From NCBI RefSeq assembly GCF_000025305.1, contig NC_013740.1, positions 1,798,001 through 1,862,000 on the forward strand: 64,000 nt of DNA, written 5' to 3'. The stretch is from Acidaminococcus fermentans DSM 20731. Lineage in GTDB: Bacteria > Bacillota > Negativicutes > Acidaminococcales > Acidaminococcaceae. Shown here in pieces: positions 568-53,962 of the stretch (within the stretch, counting starts at the first letter, position 1; each line of letters begins with the position of its first letter). Both the position numbers and the translations under genes were made by a program. The notes below the pieces were generated by a model. That model made no database searches. It saw only the letters and a list, made by a program, of their open reading frames with translations, and was not told where the DNA came from.

Positions 568-716
568 GGTCGCGGGTCGCGAGCTACAGGTCGCGAGCTA
601 GGACGTTTAAGCCATTTGTTTCTTTTTCTATATGATGATAAGAAAAAATCGGTTGGAATCTGCAAAACTGAAACTTCGGTCCGTACCAACAAGCCCGCGA
701 CCCACGACTCGTGACC
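568..716. repeat. Heptamer-bracketed intergenic element, copy A
   Basis: The left end reads as phased 7-mers GTCGCGG, GTCGCGA, GCTACAG, GTCGCGA, GCTAGGA. The right end is the inverted equivalent (reverse complement begins GTCACGA, GTCGTGG, GTCGCGG). Between them is an AT-richer core of about 90 bp that starts ACGTTTAAGCC and ends CCAACAAG. The core recurs at 5911-6059 in the same orientation and at 35904-36049 inverted. The element lies exactly between two terminator hairpins of convergent genes. No coding frame of note is seen. Confidence 0.8.
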
Positions 717-5834: not shown

Positions 5835-5877
5835 GGATATCACCTCCCGTATACTCTAAATTTTATTATACCATGAA

Positions 5878-5910
5878 AAAGGGGACTGTTGCCATGCAAC
5901 AGTCCCCTTT
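5878..5910. terminator. Bidirectional terminator hairpin
   Basis: AAAGGGGACTGTTG pairs with CAACAGTCCCCTTT around CCATG. A T-run follows on the minus strand (TTTTTCATGG) and TTTGG on the plus strand. It lies upstream of rarA and downstream of the clcA operon. Confidence 0.75.
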
Positions 5911-6059
5911 GGTCACGGGCCACGGGTCGCGGGCCTGGACGTTTAAGCCGTTTGTTTATCTTCTATAGGATGATACAGCAAAATCAATCAGAATCTGCAA
6001 AATCAGATTTTCGATTTGCACTAACAAGCCCGCGACTCATGGCTCGCGACCCGCGACCA
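5911..6059. repeat. Heptamer-bracketed intergenic element, copy B
   Basis: The left end has 7-mers GTCACGG, GCCACGG, GTCGCGG, GCCTGGA; the right end, read on the minus strand, has GTCGCGG, GTCGCGA, GCCATGA, GTCGCGG, GCTT. The core (ACGTTTAAGCCGTTTG to ACTAACAAG) is a diverged copy of the core at 568-716, same orientation. A second GC-rich hairpin (GGGGGCGAA/TTCGCCCCC, 6058-6080) abuts its right edge at the clcA stop. Confidence 0.8.
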
Positions 6060-6080
6060 GGGGGCGAATCCCTTCGCCCC

Positions 6081-7662: not shown

Positions 7663-8925
7663 TTACAGATCCTTGAACAGGCCGGTGAAGTCCAGCGTGG
7701 CGAAGTAGTCCTTCTCCGTTTCTGCCCGGCGCAGCAGTTCCACACTGCCGTCTTCCTTCAGCAGCAGTTCGGCACACCACAGCTTGGCGTTATAGTTGTA
7801 GCCCATGGCAGACCCGTGAGCCCCGGTATCATGGATGAAGAGGTAATCCCCTTTGTCGATTTTCGGCAGTTTCCGGTCGATGGCGAATTTGTCGTTGTTT
7901 TCGCAGAGGCCGCCAGTCACATCATAAGTATGGTCGCAGGGTTCGTTTTCCTTCCCCAGCACCGTAATGTGATGATAGGCCCCGTACATGGCCGGCCGCA
8001 TCAGGTTGGCGGCGCAGGCATCCACCCCCACGTATTCCTTGTAGATGTGTTTGAAATGGAGGACCTTGGTGACCAGGCCCCCGTAAGGACCGGTGACGAA
8101 ACGCCCCATTTCCGTAAACAGGGCCACATTGCCCATGCCTGCCGGCGTCAGCACTTCTTCATAGACCTTCCGGACTCCTTCCCCGATGGCGGCAATGTCA
8201 TTGGGTGTCTGTTCCGGACGGTAGGGGATGCCCACCCCGCCGGACAGGTTGATGAAGTCCACGGCCACACCGGTTTCCTTCTTCATGTCCACAGCCAGCT
8301 GGAACAGCTGACGGGCCAGTTCCGGATAATATCCGTTGGTCACGGTGTTGCTGGCCAGGAAGGCATGGATGCCGAAATGCTTCACGCCCTTGGCTTTCAG
8401 GATCTTGAAGGCTTCCCGGAGCTGGTCCCGGGTCATGCCGTATTTGGAATCCCCCGGGTTGTCCATGATGTCGTTGCCCAGGGCGAACACGCCCCCGGGA
8501 TTGAACCGGCAGCAGATGGTTTCCGGAATGGCCGCCACCTGTTCCAGAAAATCGATCATGGTGAAATCGTCCAGGTTGATGATGGCCCCCAGCTTGTAGG
8601 CTTCCTGCATGTCTTTCACAGGGGTATCGTTGGAAGAGAACATGATGTCATGGCCCTTGAAGCCGCACACATCGGAGAGCAGCAGTTCCGGATAGGAAGA
8701 GCAGTCCGTGCCGCAGCCTTCTTCCTTCATGATCTTCAGAATCCCCGGCAGGGGCGTGGCCTTCACGGCAAAATATTCCTTGAAGCCCTTGTTCCAGGCA
8801 AAAGCCTTGTTGATGCTGCGCACCGTATTCCGGATGCCCTTTTCATCGTAGATATGGAACGGCGTGGGATAGGTTTCCGCCAGTTTTTCCACCTGTTCTT
8901 TGGTTACGAATGGAACTTTTTTCAT
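7663..8925 (-). CDS. lysA: Diaminopimelate decarboxylase-like PLP enzyme (fold III)
   Basis: A 420-residue fold-type III decarboxylase. The PLP Schiff-base lysine lies in FAVKATP (about residue 53), the phosphate-binding loop is LSGGVGIPY, and the active-site cysteine motif is GGLCENNDKF. The pyridine-contacting region is EMGRFVTGPYG and the C-terminal contact is HDTGAHGSAMGYNYN. The family makes L-lysine from meso-diaminopimelate; related members decarboxylate lysine or ornithine to polyamines. In Negativicutes cadaverine or putrescine can be attached to peptidoglycan and is bound by SLH porins, so substrate testing would be of interest. It lies between an ABC importer and clcA in one apparent operon. 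Confidence 0.85.
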   Translation of the reverse strand: MKKVPFVTKEQVEKLAETYPTPFHIYDEKGIRNTVRSINKAFAWNKGFKEYFAVKATPLPGILKIMKEEGCGTDCSSYPELLLSDVCGFKGHDIMFSSNDTPVKDMQEAYKLGAIINLDDFTMIDFLEQVAAIPETICCRFNPGGVFALGNDIMDNPGDSKYGMTRDQLREAFKILKAKGVKHFGIHAFLASNTVTNGYYPELARQLFQLAVDMKKETGVAVDFINLSGGVGIPYRPEQTPNDIAAIGEGVRKVYEEVLTPAGMGNVALFTEMGRFVTGPYGGLVTKVLHFKHIYKEYVGVDACAANLMRPAMYGAYHHITVLGKENEPCDHTYDVTGGLCENNDKFAIDRKLPKIDKGDYLFIHDTGAHGSAMGYNYNAKLWCAELLLKEDGSVELLRRAETEKDYFATLDFTGLFKDL

Positions 8926-14988: not shown

Positions 14989-15040
14989 AGCAATCCCTCC
15001 TGCATCCATATCTAGTTATTATACATGATGGAAGGGAGAA

Positions 15041-15182
15041 GGGGCTGTGAAAAAATAAAGAATCATTTTTTACAGCCCGGTCACTGGTCGAAGGAAGGCA
15101 GCCGGGGCTGCAGCCCCTACAGCATCGCAATGGGGCAGTTGATTTTCATCGTCCAAGCTCTGCACTCTTCACTCTGCACTCC
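15041..15182. repeat. Hairpin plus mosaic repeat between divergent genes
   Basis: A terminator-like hairpin (GGGCTGTGAAAAAAT paired with ATTTTTTACAGCCC, 15042-15077) is followed by 7-mers GTCACTG, GTCGAAG. A short GC palindrome (GCCGGGGCTGCAGCCCC) comes next, then a module GCATCGCAATGGGGCAGTTG...TTTTCATCGTCC, and finally 7-mers CTCTGCA, CTCTTCA, CTCTGCA. The last two modules recur near 21.2, 40.1/41.97 and 45.8 kb. M48 and sbcD diverge here, so the hairpin terminates no obvious gene. Confidence 0.7.
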
Positions 15183-15232
15183 CCTTCGTGTTATGATGAT
15201 AGCAACGACTTGAACGAAAGCGAGGCATTGCT

Positions 15233-16375: not shown

Positions 16376-18648
16376 TGCGTCCCCTGGAACTTGTAATGAA
16401 CGCCTTCGGCCCCTACGCCGGGGAGGAAACCATTGATTTCACCCGGCTGGGGGAGAACCGGTTTTTCCTGATCACCGGCCCCACCGGCAGCGGCAAGACC
16501 ACCATCCTGGATGCCATCACCTTTGCCCTGTACGGCACCGCCAGCGGGGATCTCCGGGACAACCGGTCCCTGCGCAGCGACTACGCCACCCCGGACCGGA
16601 AGACGGAAGTCCGGTTCACCTTCCGGAACCAGGACCGGACCTACGAAGTGACCCGGACCCCGGAACAGGTGCTGAACAAACAGCGGGGCGAAGGGACCCG
16701 GACGGTGCCGGCGGGGGCTTCCCTGGTGGAGATCCTGCCGGAGGGCGAACGGAAAGTCCTGGGCACCTCCAACAGCGCCGTGACCCGGGCGGTGGAACAG
16801 CTCCTGGGCTTCCAGGCCCGGCAGTTCCGGCAGCTGATGGTGCTGCCCCAGGGAGAATTCCGCCGGTTCCTGGTGGCTGATTCCAAGGAGCGGAAGACCA
16901 TCCTGGAAACCCTGTTCAAGACCGGCCAGTACAGTGCCCTGGAAGATGCCCTGGATGCCCGGGCCAAAGTCCTGAAAAAGCAGCACGAGGAATGCCGGCA
17001 GAAATATCAGCTGCTCCTGGAAAGTGCCGGCACCGACAGCCCTGCCGCCCTGAAACAGCGGATCCAGGAAGAGCAGCAGCAGGCCAAAGACCTGGAAGCC
17101 CAGGCAGCCCAGGCCCAGAAAGCCGCTTCCGCCGCCCTGGAAGCCCTCCAGCAGGGACAGCAGCTGGCTTACACCTTCCAGCGCTGGCAGGAAGGCCAGA
17201 AACGGAAAGAGGCCCTGGCCGCCCAGGCGGACACCATCCGGGATCTGCAGCAGAAGATCCGGTGGCTGGACGAAGCCCTGAAGCTCCATCCCATTTACGA
17301 CCGGACCCGGAAAGCCAAGGCCCAGCTGGATACCGCCCAGGCCCTGCTCCAGAAAGCCCGGGAAGACCTCCAGGCCGCCCAGGAGCGGCTCCGGCAGCAG
17401 CTGGCCTCTGCCACGGAAACCAACACCCACGCCCTCCAGGAACAGATGGTCCGGGTCCGGGAACAGCTGGCCCGGATGACCGCCGTTTCCGGGGAAACGG
17501 TGCGGCTGGCCCAGACCCTGGTTCCCGGTGAGCCTTGCCCGGTGTGCGGATCCCCGGACCATCCCCAGCCTGCCACCCAGACCCGGAAGGCCCAGGAGGA
17601 ACTGGCCCGGAAGACCCGGGCCATGGAAGAGGAAATCGCCCGGCTGAACCGGAAGCAGAAGGCTCTGGAAAAAGCCCAGAAAGAAGCGGACCAGGCCGCC
17701 GGCTCCTGCAAAACCGCCGAAGAGAACCTGGCTGCCGCCCAGAAGGCCTTTGAAGCAGACCGGGAGGCCTACAAGACCGCCCTGGACCAGTCCCCCTTCC
17801 CGGACCAGCACACCTTCGTGGCGGCCCACAAGGCCCTGGCCAGCAAACCCCTGTGGCAGGAACAGGTGGACCGGTACCGGCAGCAGGCGGACAGTCTCCA
17901 GGGAGAACTGAAGATCCTGGCCGACCAGCTGAAGGACAAGACCCCTCCGGACCTGGCTCCCCTCCAGGAAGCCGTCCGGCAGACCGGCAGCACCGCCCAC
18001 ACCCTGGCCACCCGGACCGGTGCCCTCCAGGAAACCCTCCGCCGGGAAGAAGCGGCCCTGAAGCAGCTGGAAAAACTGGAAAAGGAACTGGACCGGCTCC
18101 AGGAAGCCTATGGGCCCATCGGTCTCCTGGCCTCCACCGCCAAAGGGGACAACAGCCGGAAACTGACCTTCTCCTCCTTTGTGCTCCAGGCCGTCCTGGA
18201 CGATGTGCTCCAGACCGCCAACCTGCGGCTGAGCAAGATCAGCCAGGGCCGCTACAGCCTGTACCGGAGCCAGGACATTGTGGATGCCCGGAAGGAACAG
18301 GGACTGGGGCTGGAAATCATGGACGCCTTCACCGGCCAGGCCCGGGCGGTGACCACCCTGTCCGGCGGGGAGATCTTCTTTACCTCCCTCTCCCTGGCCC
18401 TGGGGCTGTCCGATGTGCTGGAATCCTACGCCGGAGGCCTGCACCTGGATACCATCCTGGTGGATGAAGGGTTCGGTTCCCTGGATCCGGAAACCCTGGA
18501 CAGCGCCATCAGCGCCCTGCTGGAACTCCAGAAAGGAGGACGGCTGGTGGGGATCATCTCCCACGTGGCCGAACTGAAAGAAAGGATCTCCGCCCAGCTG
18601 GAAATCATTCCCACCAATCAGGGAAGCACCACCCGGTTCAGGGTGTAA
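16375..18648 (+). CDS. sbcC: Nuclease SbcCD subunit C (Rad50-like SMC ATPase)
   Basis: A 757-residue SMC-like ATPase. Walker A is GPTGSGKTTILDAITFALYG near residue 40. Two coiled-coil arms (about 180-370 and 400-580) flank the zinc hook CPVCGSPDHP near residue 385. The ABC signature is LSGGEIFFTSLSLALGLSDV and Walker B is TILVDEGFGSLDPETL. It is clearly shorter than the ~1,000-residue SbcC of E. coli, mainly in the arms, yet all catalytic parts are present. It forms a two-gene operon with sbcD, ended by a strong terminator. Confidence 0.93.
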   Translation: MRPLELVMNAFGPYAGEETIDFTRLGENRFFLITGPTGSGKTTILDAITFALYGTASGDLRDNRSLRSDYATPDRKTEVRFTFRNQDRTYEVTRTPEQVLNKQRGEGTRTVPAGASLVEILPEGERKVLGTSNSAVTRAVEQLLGFQARQFRQLMVLPQGEFRRFLVADSKERKTILETLFKTGQYSALEDALDARAKVLKKQHEECRQKYQLLLESAGTDSPAALKQRIQEEQQQAKDLEAQAAQAQKAASAALEALQQGQQLAYTFQRWQEGQKRKEALAAQADTIRDLQQKIRWLDEALKLHPIYDRTRKAKAQLDTAQALLQKAREDLQAAQERLRQQLASATETNTHALQEQMVRVREQLARMTAVSGETVRLAQTLVPGEPCPVCGSPDHPQPATQTRKAQEELARKTRAMEEEIARLNRKQKALEKAQKEADQAAGSCKTAEENLAAAQKAFEADREAYKTALDQSPFPDQHTFVAAHKALASKPLWQEQVDRYRQQADSLQGELKILADQLKDKTPPDLAPLQEAVRQTGSTAHTLATRTGALQETLRREEAALKQLEKLEKELDRLQEAYGPIGLLASTAKGDNSRKLTFSSFVLQAVLDDVLQTANLRLSKISQGRYSLYRSQDIVDARKEQGLGLEIMDAFTGQARAVTTLSGGEIFFTSLSLALGLSDVLESYAGGLHLDTILVDEGFGSLDPETLDSAISALLELQKGGRLVGIISHVAELKERISAQLEIIPTNQGSTTRFRV

Positions 18649-18687
18649 AAAACGGGTTTCTGCACAAAATGTGCAGAAACCCGTTTT
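18649..18687 (+). terminator. Terminator of sbcDC
   Basis: AAAACGGGTTTCTGCAC pairs perfectly with GTGCAGAAACCCGTTTT around AAAAT, directly after the sbcC stop. Confidence 0.85.
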
Positions 18688-18925
18688 GGTCAGCGGTCAG
18701 CTGTCAACTGTCAACGGCCAAAGGAAGCCAGCAAAGCTGGCTTTGGACAACGGCAACCGTTATATAAATCGTTTCCGTAGGGGCGGCAGGCCCGGCCGCC
18801 CGCCAAATCAGCAGTTGACCATGTGTTTTGCGGGGCGCCGGGCCTGCACCCCCTACGGTTTATGCTGTTTCAAAATCAATTTGCAAAAATTGATTTCCAT
18901 CGGCTGCTGACAGCTGACCGTTGAC
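18688..18925. repeat. Heptamer-bracketed element E with GC-palindrome core
   Basis: The left end is GTCAGCG, GTCAGCT, GTCAACT, GTCAACG, GCC; the right end on the minus strand is GTCAACG, GTCAGCT, GTCAGCA, GCCGATG. The interior carries a hairpin AAGCCAGC/GCTGGCTT, then a GC-rich inverted module (18776-18861) that begins GTAGGGGCGGCAGGCCCGG and ends CCGGGCCTGCACCCCCTAC. It ends with an AT hairpin AAATCAATTTGC/AAAATTGATTT. This fills the sbcC-queE gap; no gene is seen in it. Confidence 0.78.
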
Positions 18926-18955
18926 GGGGCTGTTGCATGAGCAACACCCCCTTTT
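18926..18955. terminator. Hairpin between the repeat element and queE
   Basis: GGGGCTGTTGC pairs with GCAACACCCC around ATGA, followed by CTTTTT on the plus strand. It lies directly after the queE stop on the minus strand but the T-run faces the plus strand. Confidence 0.5.
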
Positions 18956-19612
18956 TCATACCCCTCTCATCTCCGGATTCCAGATGATCTTGTGGAGCTG
19001 GACCTGGACGCGGACCTGGGCCAGTTTGTGTTCCCGGACGAATTCCACCAGTTCCCTGGGTTCGATGGCTCCGTACACCGGGGATACGTACACCTGGCTC
19101 CGGAGGGTGTACTCCCGGAGCACCCGGTCCATATCCTCCAGGTCCTCCCGGCTGCCCACCACGAACTTCACCACATCCTCCCCGGTGAGCCGGGTGAGAT
19201 TTTCCATCCGCATCCGTCCCCGCATCCCGGAAGAGGGAGATTTCACATCCATGGTGTAGAACAGGCCCCTGGGCCGCTCTTCCAGCAGGGGCACCGCCCC
19301 GTTGGTCTCGATGTTCACTTCGTATCCTTCCCGGGAAAGGGTCCGGCACAGGCTGTCCAGAGGCTGGAGCAGCGGTTCGCCCCCGGTAAGGGTCACCTTT
19401 TTCCAGGGATAGCGGCGGATCCGCCCCATCAGGTCTTCCTCCGTCAGATGTTCCCGGGCATCGGCCGGTTCCAGGGCATAGCCGGTGTCACAGTAGCTGC
19501 ACCGCAGGTTGCAGCCGGCAAAACGGACGAACACCGCCATGGCTCCGGTCCGCTTTCCTTCTCCTTCGATGGAATCGAACAGTTCCACCACGGGAAATGT
19601 TTCAGTCTTCAT
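18956..19612 (-). CDS. queE: 7-carboxy-7-deazaguanine synthase
   Basis: A 218-residue radical SAM enzyme that converts 6-carboxytetrahydropterin to 7-carboxy-7-deazaguanine in queuosine synthesis. The cluster motif is CNLRCSYC (CX3CX2C), followed by VTLTGGEPLLQ, NIETNGAVP and the N-terminal SIEGEGKRTG loop. The start MKTETFPVVE at 19612 overlaps the end of queD by 11 bp. It is the last gene of queF-queC-queD-queE. Confidence 0.93.
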   Translation of the reverse strand: MKTETFPVVELFDSIEGEGKRTGAMAVFVRFAGCNLRCSYCDTGYALEPADAREHLTEEDLMGRIRRYPWKKVTLTGGEPLLQPLDSLCRTLSREGYEVNIETNGAVPLLEERPRGLFYTMDVKSPSSGMRGRMRMENLTRLTGEDVVKFVVGSREDLEDMDRVLREYTLRSQVYVSPVYGAIEPRELVEFVREHKLAQVRVQVQLHKIIWNPEMRGV

Positions 19613-21280: not shown

Positions 21281-21286
21281 AGACAA

Positions 21287-21324
21287 GTGGGGAGTTATCC
21301 ACGTTTTCGTGGATAACTCCCCAC
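21287..21324. terminator. Terminator hairpin after the C_GCAxxG gene
   Basis: A 17-bp perfect stem (GTGGGGAGTTATCCACG with its complement, loop TTTT). The T-run is weak on either strand. Confidence 0.65.
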
Positions 21325-21352
21325 TTTATCAACATTTATCCTCCAAACCTTC

Positions 21353-23399: not shown

Positions 23400-23580
23400 T
23401 TGTCAGCGGTCAATGGCCGTTGGAAATCAATTTTGCAAATTGATTTCGAATCAACATAAAACCTATTCCTCTAAATATATCAAGCGGACCCGCAGGGGCT
23501 GCACGCCGGGCAGCCCGCCAGACAACCGGTTGTCCGTGTATTTTGCGGGGCGCCGGGCCTGCGCCCCCTACGGTTTTATA
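23400..23580. repeat. Heptamer and GC-palindrome mosaic element F
   Basis: It starts with GTCAGCG, GTCAATG, GCCGTTG, then an AT palindrome AAATCAATTTTGCAAATTGATTT in two halves also seen at 18871-18899. The GC module (23487-23575) begins CGCAGGGGCTGCACGCCGGG and ends GCCGGGCCTGCGCCCCCTAC. It lies upstream of abgT. No gene is seen. Confidence 0.7.
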
Positions 23581-25851: not shown

Positions 25852-25927
25852 TGGTGGGCGCTAACAGGATCGAACTGCTGACATTCTGCTTGTAAGGCAG
25901 ACGCTCTCCCAGCTGAGCTAAGCGCCC
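25852..25927 (-). tRNA. tRNA-Val (anticodon TAC)
   Basis: A 76-nt cloverleaf with encoded CCA. Acceptor GGGCGCT/AGCGCCC, anticodon arm TCTGC-CTTACAA-GCAGA, T-loop GTTCGATC. It is the third gene of a three-tRNA operon. Confidence 0.96.
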
Positions 25928-25933
25928 ATAAGT

Positions 25934-26008
25934 TGGTGACCGGAGGGGGAATCGAACCCCCGATACCGCCGTGAAAGGGCGGTGTCTTAACCGCTTGACC
26001 ATCCGGCC
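25934..26008 (-). tRNA. tRNA-Glu (anticodon TTC)
   Basis: A 75-nt cloverleaf with encoded CCA. Acceptor GGCCGGA/TCCGGTC (one G-T pair), anticodon arm CCGCC-CTTTCAC-GGCGG. It is the middle gene of the operon. Confidence 0.96.
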
Positions 26009-26016
26009 AAAAAAAA

Positions 26017-26092
26017 TGGTGATCCGCCAGAGGATCGAACTCTGGACACCCTGATTAAGAGTCAGGTGCTCTACCAGCTGAGCTAGCGGACC
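26017..26092 (-). tRNA. tRNA-Lys (anticodon CTT)
   Basis: A 76-nt cloverleaf with encoded CCA. Acceptor GGTCCGC/GCGGATC, anticodon arm CCTGA-CTCTTAA-TCAGG. It is the promoter-proximal gene of the operon. Confidence 0.96.
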
Positions 26093-35847: not shown

Positions 35848-35876
35848 TGATGTGATTCCTTCCTTATGAAAACAGG

Positions 35877-35903
35877 GGCTGTTGCACAGGCAACAGCCCC
35901 TTT
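35877..35903. terminator. Terminator-like hairpin left of element C
   Basis: GGGGCTGTTGC pairs with GCAACAGCCCC around ACAG, followed by TTTGG on the plus strand; the minus strand has TGTTTTC. It sits upstream of the YbjX-family gene. Confidence 0.6.
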
Positions 35904-36049
35904 GGTCGCGGGTCTCGAGTCGCGGGCTTGTTGGTACAGACCGAAGATCCAGTTTTGCAGATTCCAGCCGATTTTGTCTTATCATCCTATAGAAAAAACA
36001 AGCGGCTTGAACCTCCTGGCTCGCGACCCGTGACTCGCGACCCGCGACC
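35904..36049. repeat. Heptamer-bracketed intergenic element, copy C (inverted)
   Basis: Left 7-mers are GTCGCGG, GTCTCGA, GTCGCGG, GCTTG; right 7-mers on the minus strand are GTCGCGG, GTCGCGA, GTCACGG, GTCGCGA, GCCAGGA. The core is the reverse complement of that in copies A and B (minus-strand AAGCCGCTTG, ATAGGATGATAAGA, GGAATCTGCAAAACTGG, ACCAACAAG). Hairpins abut both edges. Confidence 0.8.
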
Positions 36050-36083
36050 CGGGTGTGTGAACGTCTTTCACACACCCTTTTAT
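36050..36083. terminator. Terminator hairpin at the end of the 36080 gene
   Basis: GGGTGTGTGAA pairs with TTCACACACCC around CGTCT or so, with CTTTTATTTG on the plus strand. It overlaps the stop of the minus-strand gene and abuts element C. Confidence 0.6.
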
Positions 36084-43434: not shown

Positions 43435-43467
43435 AGGGGCCTTCGGCCCTGTCACTAGTCACTAGCC
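43435..43467. repeat. Hairpin plus heptamers GTCACTA
   Basis: GGGCC/GGCCC hairpin (43437-43449) followed by GTCACTA, GTCACTA, GCCGAAT in 7-bp phase, the same layout as the longer elements. Confidence 0.65.
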
Positions 43468-43472
43468 GAATG

Positions 43473-43511
43473 AAAAAAGACCGTCGCATCAATGATGTGA
43501 CGGTCTTTTTT
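43473..43511. terminator. Bidirectional terminator between the NlpC/P60 gene and ompM1
   Basis: AAAAAAGACCGTC pairs with GACGGTCTTTTTT, with an inner CATC/GATG stem. It serves both convergent genes. Confidence 0.85.
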
Positions 43512-45166: not shown

Positions 45167-45223
45167 AAAGGCCGCCGGAACCTCCGGCGGCCTTTGTCAG
45201 CTGTCAACAGTCAGCGGCCGTAC
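45167..45223. repeat. Terminator hairpin plus heptamer array at a gene truncation point
   Basis: AAAGGCCGCCGGA/TCCGGCGGCCTTT hairpin (45167-45195), then GTCAGCT, GTCAACA, GTCAGCG, GCCGTAC in phase (45196-45223). The array is where homology of the NYN fragment ends. Confidence 0.78.
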
Positions 45224-48942: not shown

Positions 48943-49073
48943 GGTTTTATTTTAACACAAGATTACAGAAAAAAGCAAATTTGTGAAGTATTTTTGACCG
49001 ACAGTTGCACTTTGTTGTGATTATTCTATGTTTATTCTAAGTTTTATCACGTATTTTTATTTTTATAGTATAC
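48943..49073. other. AT-rich non-coding stretch between ompM3 and ompM4
   Basis: AT-rich sequence upstream of the ompM3 promoter with no gene. It may act as an UP-element-like or curved region; nothing more specific is seen. Confidence 0.4.
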
Positions 49074-49105
49074 AAAAAGGACGATTCCGAAGAATCGTCC
49101 TTTTT
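49074..49105 (-). terminator. Terminator downstream of ompM4
   Basis: AAAAAGGACGATTC pairs with GAATCGTCCTTTTT around CGAA, with A/T runs on both sides. The double-hairpin repeat lies between it and the ompM4 stop. Confidence 0.85.
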
Positions 49106-49120
49106 GTATTGGTGAGGAAG

Positions 49121-53793: not shown

Positions 53794-53962
53794 GGGTCGC
53801 GAGCCGCGAGTCGCGGGCCGCGGGCTTTTTTGGTGCAGCCAAAAGTATGGCTGCTTTTCATTGTATATTATATTTATTATATCATATTGTGAACAAAAGT
53901 TCACGATTCATCCGACTTTACAGACCAAATGGCCCGCGACCCGCGACTCATGGCCCGCGACC
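53794..53962. repeat. Heptamer-bracketed element D with a different core
   Basis: The left end is GTCGCGA, GCCGCGA, GTCGCGG, GCCGCGG, GCTT; the right end, on the minus strand, has GTCGCGG, GCCATGA, GTCGCGG, GTCGCGG, GCC-type words. The AT-rich core (GCAGCCAAAAGTATGGCTGC hairpin and TATATTATATTTATTATATC) is unlike copies A-C and may contain the promoter of the small gene. Confidence 0.75.

Follow-up and report, generated by a model that had tools for sequence, protein, structure and literature searches.

The STRR heptamers of cyanobacteria are heptameric repeats, and the elements described in this study resemble them by description only. A different heptamer, TAACTGA, is repeated in Beggiatoaceae, Cyanobacteria and Bacteroidetes; according to excerpts of PMC4679880 it is a single word that in one genome lies mostly just upstream of start codons, whereas Acidaminococcus has several word families at gene 3' ends with common end hairpins. 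SPRITE of Streptococcus pneumoniae, as outlined in excerpts of PMC3049150, has an 18-bp duplex followed by a U-rich tract. Like our elements it is a dispersed terminator-like repeat that is over-represented between convergent genes, lies near 3' ends and is considered mobile, but by description the elements here differ: they have hairpins at both ends, heptad arrays and multiple word families, and they can substitute for plain hairpins. BOX (boxA-boxB(n)-boxC), taken from the same excerpts, is likewise a modular small repeat with variable tandem middle units and constant ends; by description, the tandem unit in Acidaminococcus differs in its length of 7 bp and its invariant GTC, and terminator-like hairpins form the ends. 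In Porphyromonas gingivalis, BrickBuilt is an intergenic MITE with a minisatellite of 23-nt repeats, and 10 of its 19 instances have predicted terminators and/or polyadenylation sites at their flanks (excerpts of PMC4596501). Both are intergenic MITE or MITE-like elements with a tandem repeat, but the words here have 7 nt and the hairpins are the Acidaminococcus element's own ends. GTAG-REP sequences with their RAYTs are also short palindromes 3' of genes, and a GTAG-type palindrome is even nested in our family A; as far as the excerpted PMC3733652 describes that system, membership in REP/REPIN sequences mobilized by RAYTs does not fit, as the heptad arrays and hairpins are without the GTAG tag and their distribution does not follow that of Y1 transposase genes. 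REPINs (PMC3116915) are a further known relative. No description of these GTC heptad repeats was found by title or abstract opening in the literature searched, and the words 'terminator' and 'intergenic' do not occur in the excerpted text of the A. fermentans genome paper (PMC3035267). Judged by analogy, the elements seem to behave like a cross between SPRITE and BOX rather than as a proven member of any known system, and they would appear to be new, yet of a SPRITE/BOX/MITE-like kind.

The window is a 64,000-nt stretch of Acidaminococcus fermentans DSM 20731, positions 1798001-1862000 of the single 2,329,769-bp contig; this genome is labelled G000 and compared with its relatives G001 to G008. 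An earlier note, made from the letters of the window alone, had cut both ends of an intergenic element at 18688-18925 into 7-bp words. This reading was borne out when both arms were re-read from the sequence. The element at 18649-18955 sits between two convergent genes, one SbcC-like and one radical-SAM, and its parts follow one another in this order:

18649-18687, no strand: hairpin 1, an 18-bp perfect stem directly 3' of the SbcC-like stop codon (TAA 18646-18648)
18689-18723, plus strand: left heptad array, family A, GTCAGCG GTCAGCT GTCAACT GTCAACG, closing word GCCAAAG
18718-18746, no strand: A2 closing hairpin CCAAAGGAAGCCAGC..GCTGGCTTTGG, recurrent in family A
18775-18858, no strand: nested GTAG-REP/REPIN-like palindrome (CCGTAGGGGC...CCCCTACGG) within the A element, carrying GTAG
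18872-18897, no strand: A1 closing hairpin (AAAATCAATTTGC..AAATTGATTTC)
18898-18925, minus strand: right heptad array, family A, inverted, GTCAACG GTCAGCT GTCAGCA, closing word GCCGATG
18926-18956, plus strand: hairpin 2 and T-tract (GGGGCTGTTGC..GCAACACCCCC TTTTT)

In the predicted RNA fold the left and right arrays pair, and the whole element reaches z=-11.6. A consensus terminator scan of 18600-19000 gave 1 site compared with 0.6±0.8 in shuffles, which is not above the shuffles. A family A element without the nested GTAG palindrome exists at L040 10622, and the nesting of this palindrome inside family A indicates that at least two palindrome systems are layered here. The orthologous gap holds one plain terminator in G004 (TAAAAAAGGGGGCTGTTGCTAAGCAACAGCCCCCTTTTTT), another plain terminator in G008 and a C-word element with arrays at both ends in G003. 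Hairpin 1 is absent from the gap of G004, and the CTGTTGC stem of hairpin 2 matches the single terminator of this empty site.

The window holds further elements of the same kind:

518-770, no strand: family B element between two hairpins, arrays 569-603 (plus) and 695-715 (minus); at this site G003 and G008 show a hairpin but no array
5876-6080, no strand: family B element with flanking hairpins, arrays 5912-5939 (plus) and 6030-6057 (minus)
15039-15100, plus strand: hairpin, then a two-word C-like remnant GTCACTG GTCGAAGGAAGGCAGCC, missed by the array finder
23402-23579, plus strand: single array of family A (23402-23422) and its A1 hairpin, followed by a GTAG-REP-like palindrome (23476-23579); in the G004 ortholog the palindrome part is present and the array absent
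35872-36077, no strand: family B element with flanking hairpins, arrays 35905-35925 (plus) and 36014-36048 (minus); G003 shares the element, G004 carries one of family A at this position, and G008 and G005 lack an array
43451-43511, plus strand: family C array GTCACTA GTCACTA GCCGAAT, then a terminator-like hairpin; a B element at this site in G003, a C element in G008
45196-45223, plus strand: single family A array directly 3' of a terminator-like hairpin; no array in G003 and G008
53796-53961, no strand: family B-like element with divergent core, arrays 53796-53823 (plus) and 53927-53961 (minus); also present in G003, and G008 has a C/B-like array in the same place

Elsewhere in the window, two long perfect palindromes at 21285-21326 (AAGTGGGGAGTTATCCACG..) and 49070-49109 (ATACAAAAAGGACGATTC..) are possibly operators or attenuators; the former has a counterpart in G008 and the latter in G003. 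An Rfam 15 scan of the window at the gathering score matched only three tRNAs, which are adjacent genes on the minus strand (25855-26092), and left the heptad elements unmatched.

For the statistics we used an 864-kb sample of the own genome, consisting of the window and 40 stretches, in which a simple custom gene finder left 423 intergenic regions (119.5 kb). In this intergenic DNA two GTC triplets are spaced by 7 nt 303 times, compared with 31.6±4.6 in a Markov-1 model. The counts are 198 against 30.5 at spacing 14, 96 against 30.7 at 21 and 46 against 27.9 at 28, and coding DNA of the sample shows no GTC peak at these four spacings beyond the 3-base rhythm. Genome-wide, the three-word pattern GTCRNSDGTCRNSDGTC has 149 matches versus 9 when it is read backwards, and a four-word GTC pattern has 282 versus 3. 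There is no general heptad phase in intergenic regions that lack a GYC heptad pair (lag-7 z=0.3). As the arrays are a small part of intergenic DNA, the overall intergenic lag-7 excess is modest (z=2.0 in G000, 0.5 in G003, 2.2 in G004 and 2.3 in G008).

The earlier note had proposed a dispersed family of small palindromic intergenic elements with a 7-bp phase, and our data support this. Its own search pattern yields 14 arrays in the window, compared with a mean of 1.70 (maximum 5) in 100 Markov-1 shuffles, and 3 facing pairs, compared with none in the shuffles. Ten of the 11 other sites for which it had claimed the same grammar were recovered by our array finder (569, 695, 5912, 6030, 23402, 35905, 36014, 43451, 45196 and 53796); the eleventh, 15080, was missed because it holds only GTCACTG GTCGAAG and is too short for the finder. 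Instead of the fixed closing word that had been suggested, we observed a bias that varies between families, with GCCGATG (22), GCCGTTG (9), GCCGAAG (8), GCTTGTT (8), GCCAAAG (7) and GCCTGGA (7) as the commonest forms. As for the idea that both ends share one word set in inverted orientation, 18 of 20 facing pairs carry a single word family on their two ends and the other 2 are mixed. Such pairs comprise only 40 of the 140 intergenic arrays; the other 100 are single, and some of these may be paired after all, as the finder misses arms of one or two words. A pairing of words specific to each element was likewise to be expected from the note, and we reject it: arms match the arms of other elements no worse, with an arm-to-arm identity of 0.728 versus 0.800 when permuted in family A (6 elements, p=0.997) and 0.763 versus 0.787 in family B (9 elements, p=0.87). 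Covariation at the level of bases is at best marginal in 16 B elements (91.7% of cells paired versus 90.5±0.5 shuffled, a level reached by 13 of 500 shuffles; 6 pairs in which both partners changed, reached by 27 of 500 shuffles; RNAalifold covariation term for B elements -0.2).

The heptad arrays are parts of a superfamily of short elements with at least four word families, A to D. Most of what follows, like the nested GTAG palindrome at 18775-18858, goes beyond the earlier note: arrays are linked to hairpins and lie at gene 3' ends, and elements can bear a hairpin on either end and substitute for plain terminators. The array finder detected 222 arrays in the 864-kb sample, of which 82 overlap called genes and were left out of the counts. 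The remaining 140 intergenic arrays were sorted by word and closing motif into family A (58, words mostly GTCA[A/G]C[G/T/A]), family C (40, mostly GTC[A/T]CT[A/G]), family B (33, mostly GTC[G/A/T]CG[G/A]) and family D (1), with no family given to 8; the D words GTCGGAA and GTCTGGA occur more frequently in the word lists of G003 and G004. Word constraint is sharp in family A, where position 5 is A in 87 and G in 89 cases and position 7 is C in 2 of 178. The common layout is a terminator-like hairpin, the heptad words, a closing word and a core, in a minority followed by inverted heptads, and usually a second hairpin. Arrays mostly have 3 to 5 words including the closing GCC word, which is most often GCCGATG or a near form and leads into the hairpin core; in family B one end closes with GCCTGGACGTTTAA, the other with GCTTGTTGGT. 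Arrays at different loci have closing words, cores and end hairpins in common. Stems of at least 10 matched pairs ending no more than 12 nt from the first word accompany 81 of the 140 arrays, compared with 15 of 300 random intergenic points, and in 41 of the 104 arrays having at least 8 matched pairs the stem is flush with the first word. Among single arrays with gene context, 65 of 93 lie downstream of a same-strand gene (about half expected), at a median of 34 nt beyond the gene end when on the same strand. Arrays are found in 30 of the 59 gaps between convergent genes, in 64 of the 307 between tandem genes and in 4 of the 57 between divergent genes. With their G/C-rich stem-loops and T-tracts at gene 3' ends, the element hairpins would be predicted to act as intrinsic terminators. 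The arrays themselves do not seem to be self-folding RNA, a candidate that we reject: their mean rank among 24 word permutations is 8.9 in A, 7.9 in C and 13.3 in B, with 12.5 expected at random, which is no consistent gain.

The superfamily is strong in 4 of the 9 Acidaminococcus genomes searched. A five-word GTC pattern matches in 20 of 252 genomes of the class, with 114 matches in G000, 40 in G003, 53 in G004, 60 in G008 and at most 6 in each of the other 16. With four words, 14 of 59 genomes match in a scan at family level, 7 of them once only. A contig scan, which may leave out the window's own genome, found one A word string at 14 loci, all in Acidaminococcus. All these search patterns require GTC and would overlook other words. 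In G006 (L088, L100, L108) and G007 (L087, L091) we noted intergenic heptads in another phase that mix words such as CAGCCGT, GCAGACC and GCGGTCT, a different heptad vocabulary within the same genus.

The earlier note had named presence or absence at orthologous gaps as a test, and such a pattern was found in 88 gaps compared between the own genome and G003, G004 or G008. An array of the own genome is missing from the relative in 8 of 13 (G003), 10 of 14 (G004) and 8 of 11 gaps (G008), and where the own genome has none the relative has an array in 1 of 39, 1 of 31 and 0 of 29; these counts score a chance array in the G004 gap L038 15130 as present in both, take the G003 gap 5835 as empty although it keeps a short A array, and include the G004 gap L046 9794, which keeps two words. 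Different families also occupy one and the same site: 18649 has A in the own genome, C in G003 and none in G004 and G008, 35848 has B and in G004 A, 43408 has C and in G003 B, and L037 2100 has A and in G004 D. Five C sites could be mapped to a relative, starting from 18 C matches that may count one copy twice where stretches overlap. A plain stem-loop stands in the exact place of the C element at 194401 of the own genome (in G004), at L037 10238 (G003 and G004) and at L037 12006 (G003), with 22 to 27 nt between the aligned flanks in the relative at these three substitution sites. At 194401 the C element precedes TTTTTT, and G004 reads AAAAGG[CCTGCTGCCGGCGCAGCAGG]CCTTTTTT in the exact place. 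The C site in L063 corresponds to a single hairpin in G004 and G008 and to an unrelated insert in G003, and the C site in L194 to a D element in G004. At L037 2651 the stem resembling that of G004 is kept, and heptads and a second hairpin are found exactly between this stem and its TTTT. No target-site duplication was evident by eye in the comparisons of filled and empty sites; a short one would be masked by the A- and T-tracts that flank the element.

Mobility is supported by these data, most clearly for family C with its near-identical copies and substitution sites. A C copy has a hairpin at each end, A- and T-tracts outside and one array between, while A and B elements can have inverted heptad arms. 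The end hairpins of C are related in inverted order and imperfect, the exact termini are not fixed, and one C copy folds with z=-6.9. In the own genome we found at least 47 matches, with at least 10 full copies that are 100% identical over 122 nt. Of the 31 longest matches (30 of which were tabulated in the word-permutation test), 26 measure 115, 122, 129 or 136 nt, one word per step. G008 also has at least 47 matches, many of them full-length and up to 99% identical to the G000 consensus. The closer relatives have degenerate copies only, the best long match among the matches listed being 83% in G004 and 78% over 75 nt in G003, and G001, G002, G005, G006 and G007 have none of the consensus among the matches listed. 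The SbcC protein is 91% identical to the own one in G004, 89% in G003 and 77% in G008. Hence family C looks recently mobile. With near-identical copies in the distant G008 and degenerate ones in the closer G003 and G004, recent transfer between species, or a shared recent source, would be the simplest reading. We also noted at L063 8570-8886 (1568570-1568886 of the own contig) a C element with an 18-word array (8668-8800) that alternates GTCACTA and GTCTCTA and adjoins an A palindrome that lacks a core; the gap holds a plain hairpin in G004 and G008.

No enzyme travelling with the elements was found among matches to the Y1_Tnp and RVT_1 profiles. Mobilization by Y1, IS200 or RAYT proteins is unsupported: G004 has no Y1_Tnp match despite 178 four-word matches, only 2 of 8 Y1 loci (L132, L136) have an array nearby, and no Y1_Tnp locus has ends matching those of the heptad elements, for which reason we call the latter MITE-like and not MITEs. 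A reverse transcriptase is argued against by the absence of RVT_1 from G000, G003, G006 and G007. In G008, a long GTCACTA/GCCACTA array (L136 1229-1330) adjoins an IS200-type (Y1) gene; this Y1 insertion seems to lie within a C-type array, with end hairpins that differ from those of C. RAYT-like ORFs with an MPNHLH / MPNHIH motif, 50.6% identical to each other, occur in G008 (L116, about 16544-17102) and G003 (L135 1269-1761). The G008 ORF lies in the gap orthologous to window 15010-15232 and is followed by GTAGGGGC-type palindromes.

We favor the reading in which non-autonomous MITE-like elements, present in some Acidaminococcus species, target the intrinsic terminator at the gene 3' end, and we give it a probability of roughly two in three. 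An element would take the place of the host's stem-loop or enter at the edge between stem and T-tract, and the outer A- and T-tracts of the host would be kept. With a hairpin at each end, the full element would then form a two-way, outward-facing terminator that is expected to end transcription in vivo, and this might be what makes the insertion tolerable. Between the hairpins, arrays of a constant GTC plus four family-specific letters would grow or shrink by 7 bp, and families A to D would bring different words and cores in a common layout to the same sites. Movement would be by active transposition rather than recombination, with the hairpins or the heptads as a possible recognition feature of a putative enzyme.

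Several points count against the MITE-like reading: the searches above gave neither an accompanying enzyme nor an evident target-site duplication, arms do not match within elements, the terminator scan at 18600-19000 stayed at shuffle level, only five C sites could be mapped to a relative, and the exact replacement of a hairpin is odd for a plain insertion. Instead, ectopic gene conversion or template switching might copy entire stem-loops from site to site, whether these have heptads or not, without any transposase. Exact replacement by C elements would agree with this, and A-tract/GGG...CCC/T-tract edges are common to the terminators of these genomes. Their stems also belong to a limited repertoire: TGTTGC-, TGCTGC- or TGTGAA-type stems, in one arm or the other, are present in 78 of 126 gene-end terminators, and left arms of these three types, which were picked by eye from the same data, number 49 versus 2.26 in shuffles. 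Furthermore, orthologous gene-end terminators often differ by the whole stem-loop while their flanks stay similar. In a strict set, in which some rows carry arrays and which has no non-terminator control, the core matches its ortholog at less than 0.65 identity in 9 of 13 rows for G004 (11 distinct sites), 6 of 12 for G003 and 4 of 4 for G008, with median flank identities of 88%, 86% and 82%. Examples without an own array are L036 844, L038 1990, L038 16282 and L063 4967 (G004) and L042 9256, L048 18957, L053 3085 and L053 8994 (G003). As terminators without heptads thus also differ by whole stems between relatives, recombination may explain part of the pattern. In a looser hairpin set, however, terminators are no more diverged than control intergenic segments (median identity, hairpins/controls: 0.86/0.85 in G004, 0.84/0.78 in G003 and 0.77/0.80 in G008). 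The identical dispersed C copies and the 99% match in a distant congener look like a bounded amplifying element, and at L037 2651 and 18649 material is added to a retained hairpin that looks native. We consider such exchange by recombination rather unlikely. The divergence of terminators, small as its numbers are, supports recombination and a further-reaching possibility alike. Terminators of these species might be exchangeable cassettes: a dedicated, hairpin-targeted mobility could swap entire terminator stem-loops, from a small stock of plain stems to heptad-armed double terminators, with the GTC heptads serving as an address or handle with family-specific four-letter codes; this we put forward tentatively, as a doubtful extension.

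The GUC heptads in 3' untranslated regions could also be kept by the host as binding sites for an RNA- or DNA-binding protein. The sharp word constraint of family A and the excess of single arrays shortly behind same-strand genes would suit such a role, but most orthologous gaps in the relatives lack an array, word families differ at one site and the arrays have no consistent self-folding advantage over permuted words, which makes it improbable. Even less credible is that heptad tandem repeats merely grew by replication slippage beside terminators without mobility. Slippage would account for the 7-bp steps among C copies and for the 18-word array, but not for closing words, cores and end hairpins that recur at different loci, nor for identical copies at unrelated loci whose orthologous sites are free of arrays.

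In conclusion, our findings suggest that some Acidaminococcus species carry hundreds of short, apparently mobile heptad elements where their relatives have terminators, and that terminators can be replaced as ready-made parts. If whole stem-loops are indeed swapped by hairpin-targeted mobility, terminators would evolve by replacement and not by compensatory point change. If the MITE-like reading is right, one could ask what recognizes the heptads and whether so small an element is able to home to DNA coding for an RNA hairpin. The gene ends of a gut commensal would then be rewired by mobile parts that insert where they do the least harm and bring two-way terminators with them, and several word families on common sites, together with congeners that have or lack them, might offer a natural system for the study of terminator turnover.
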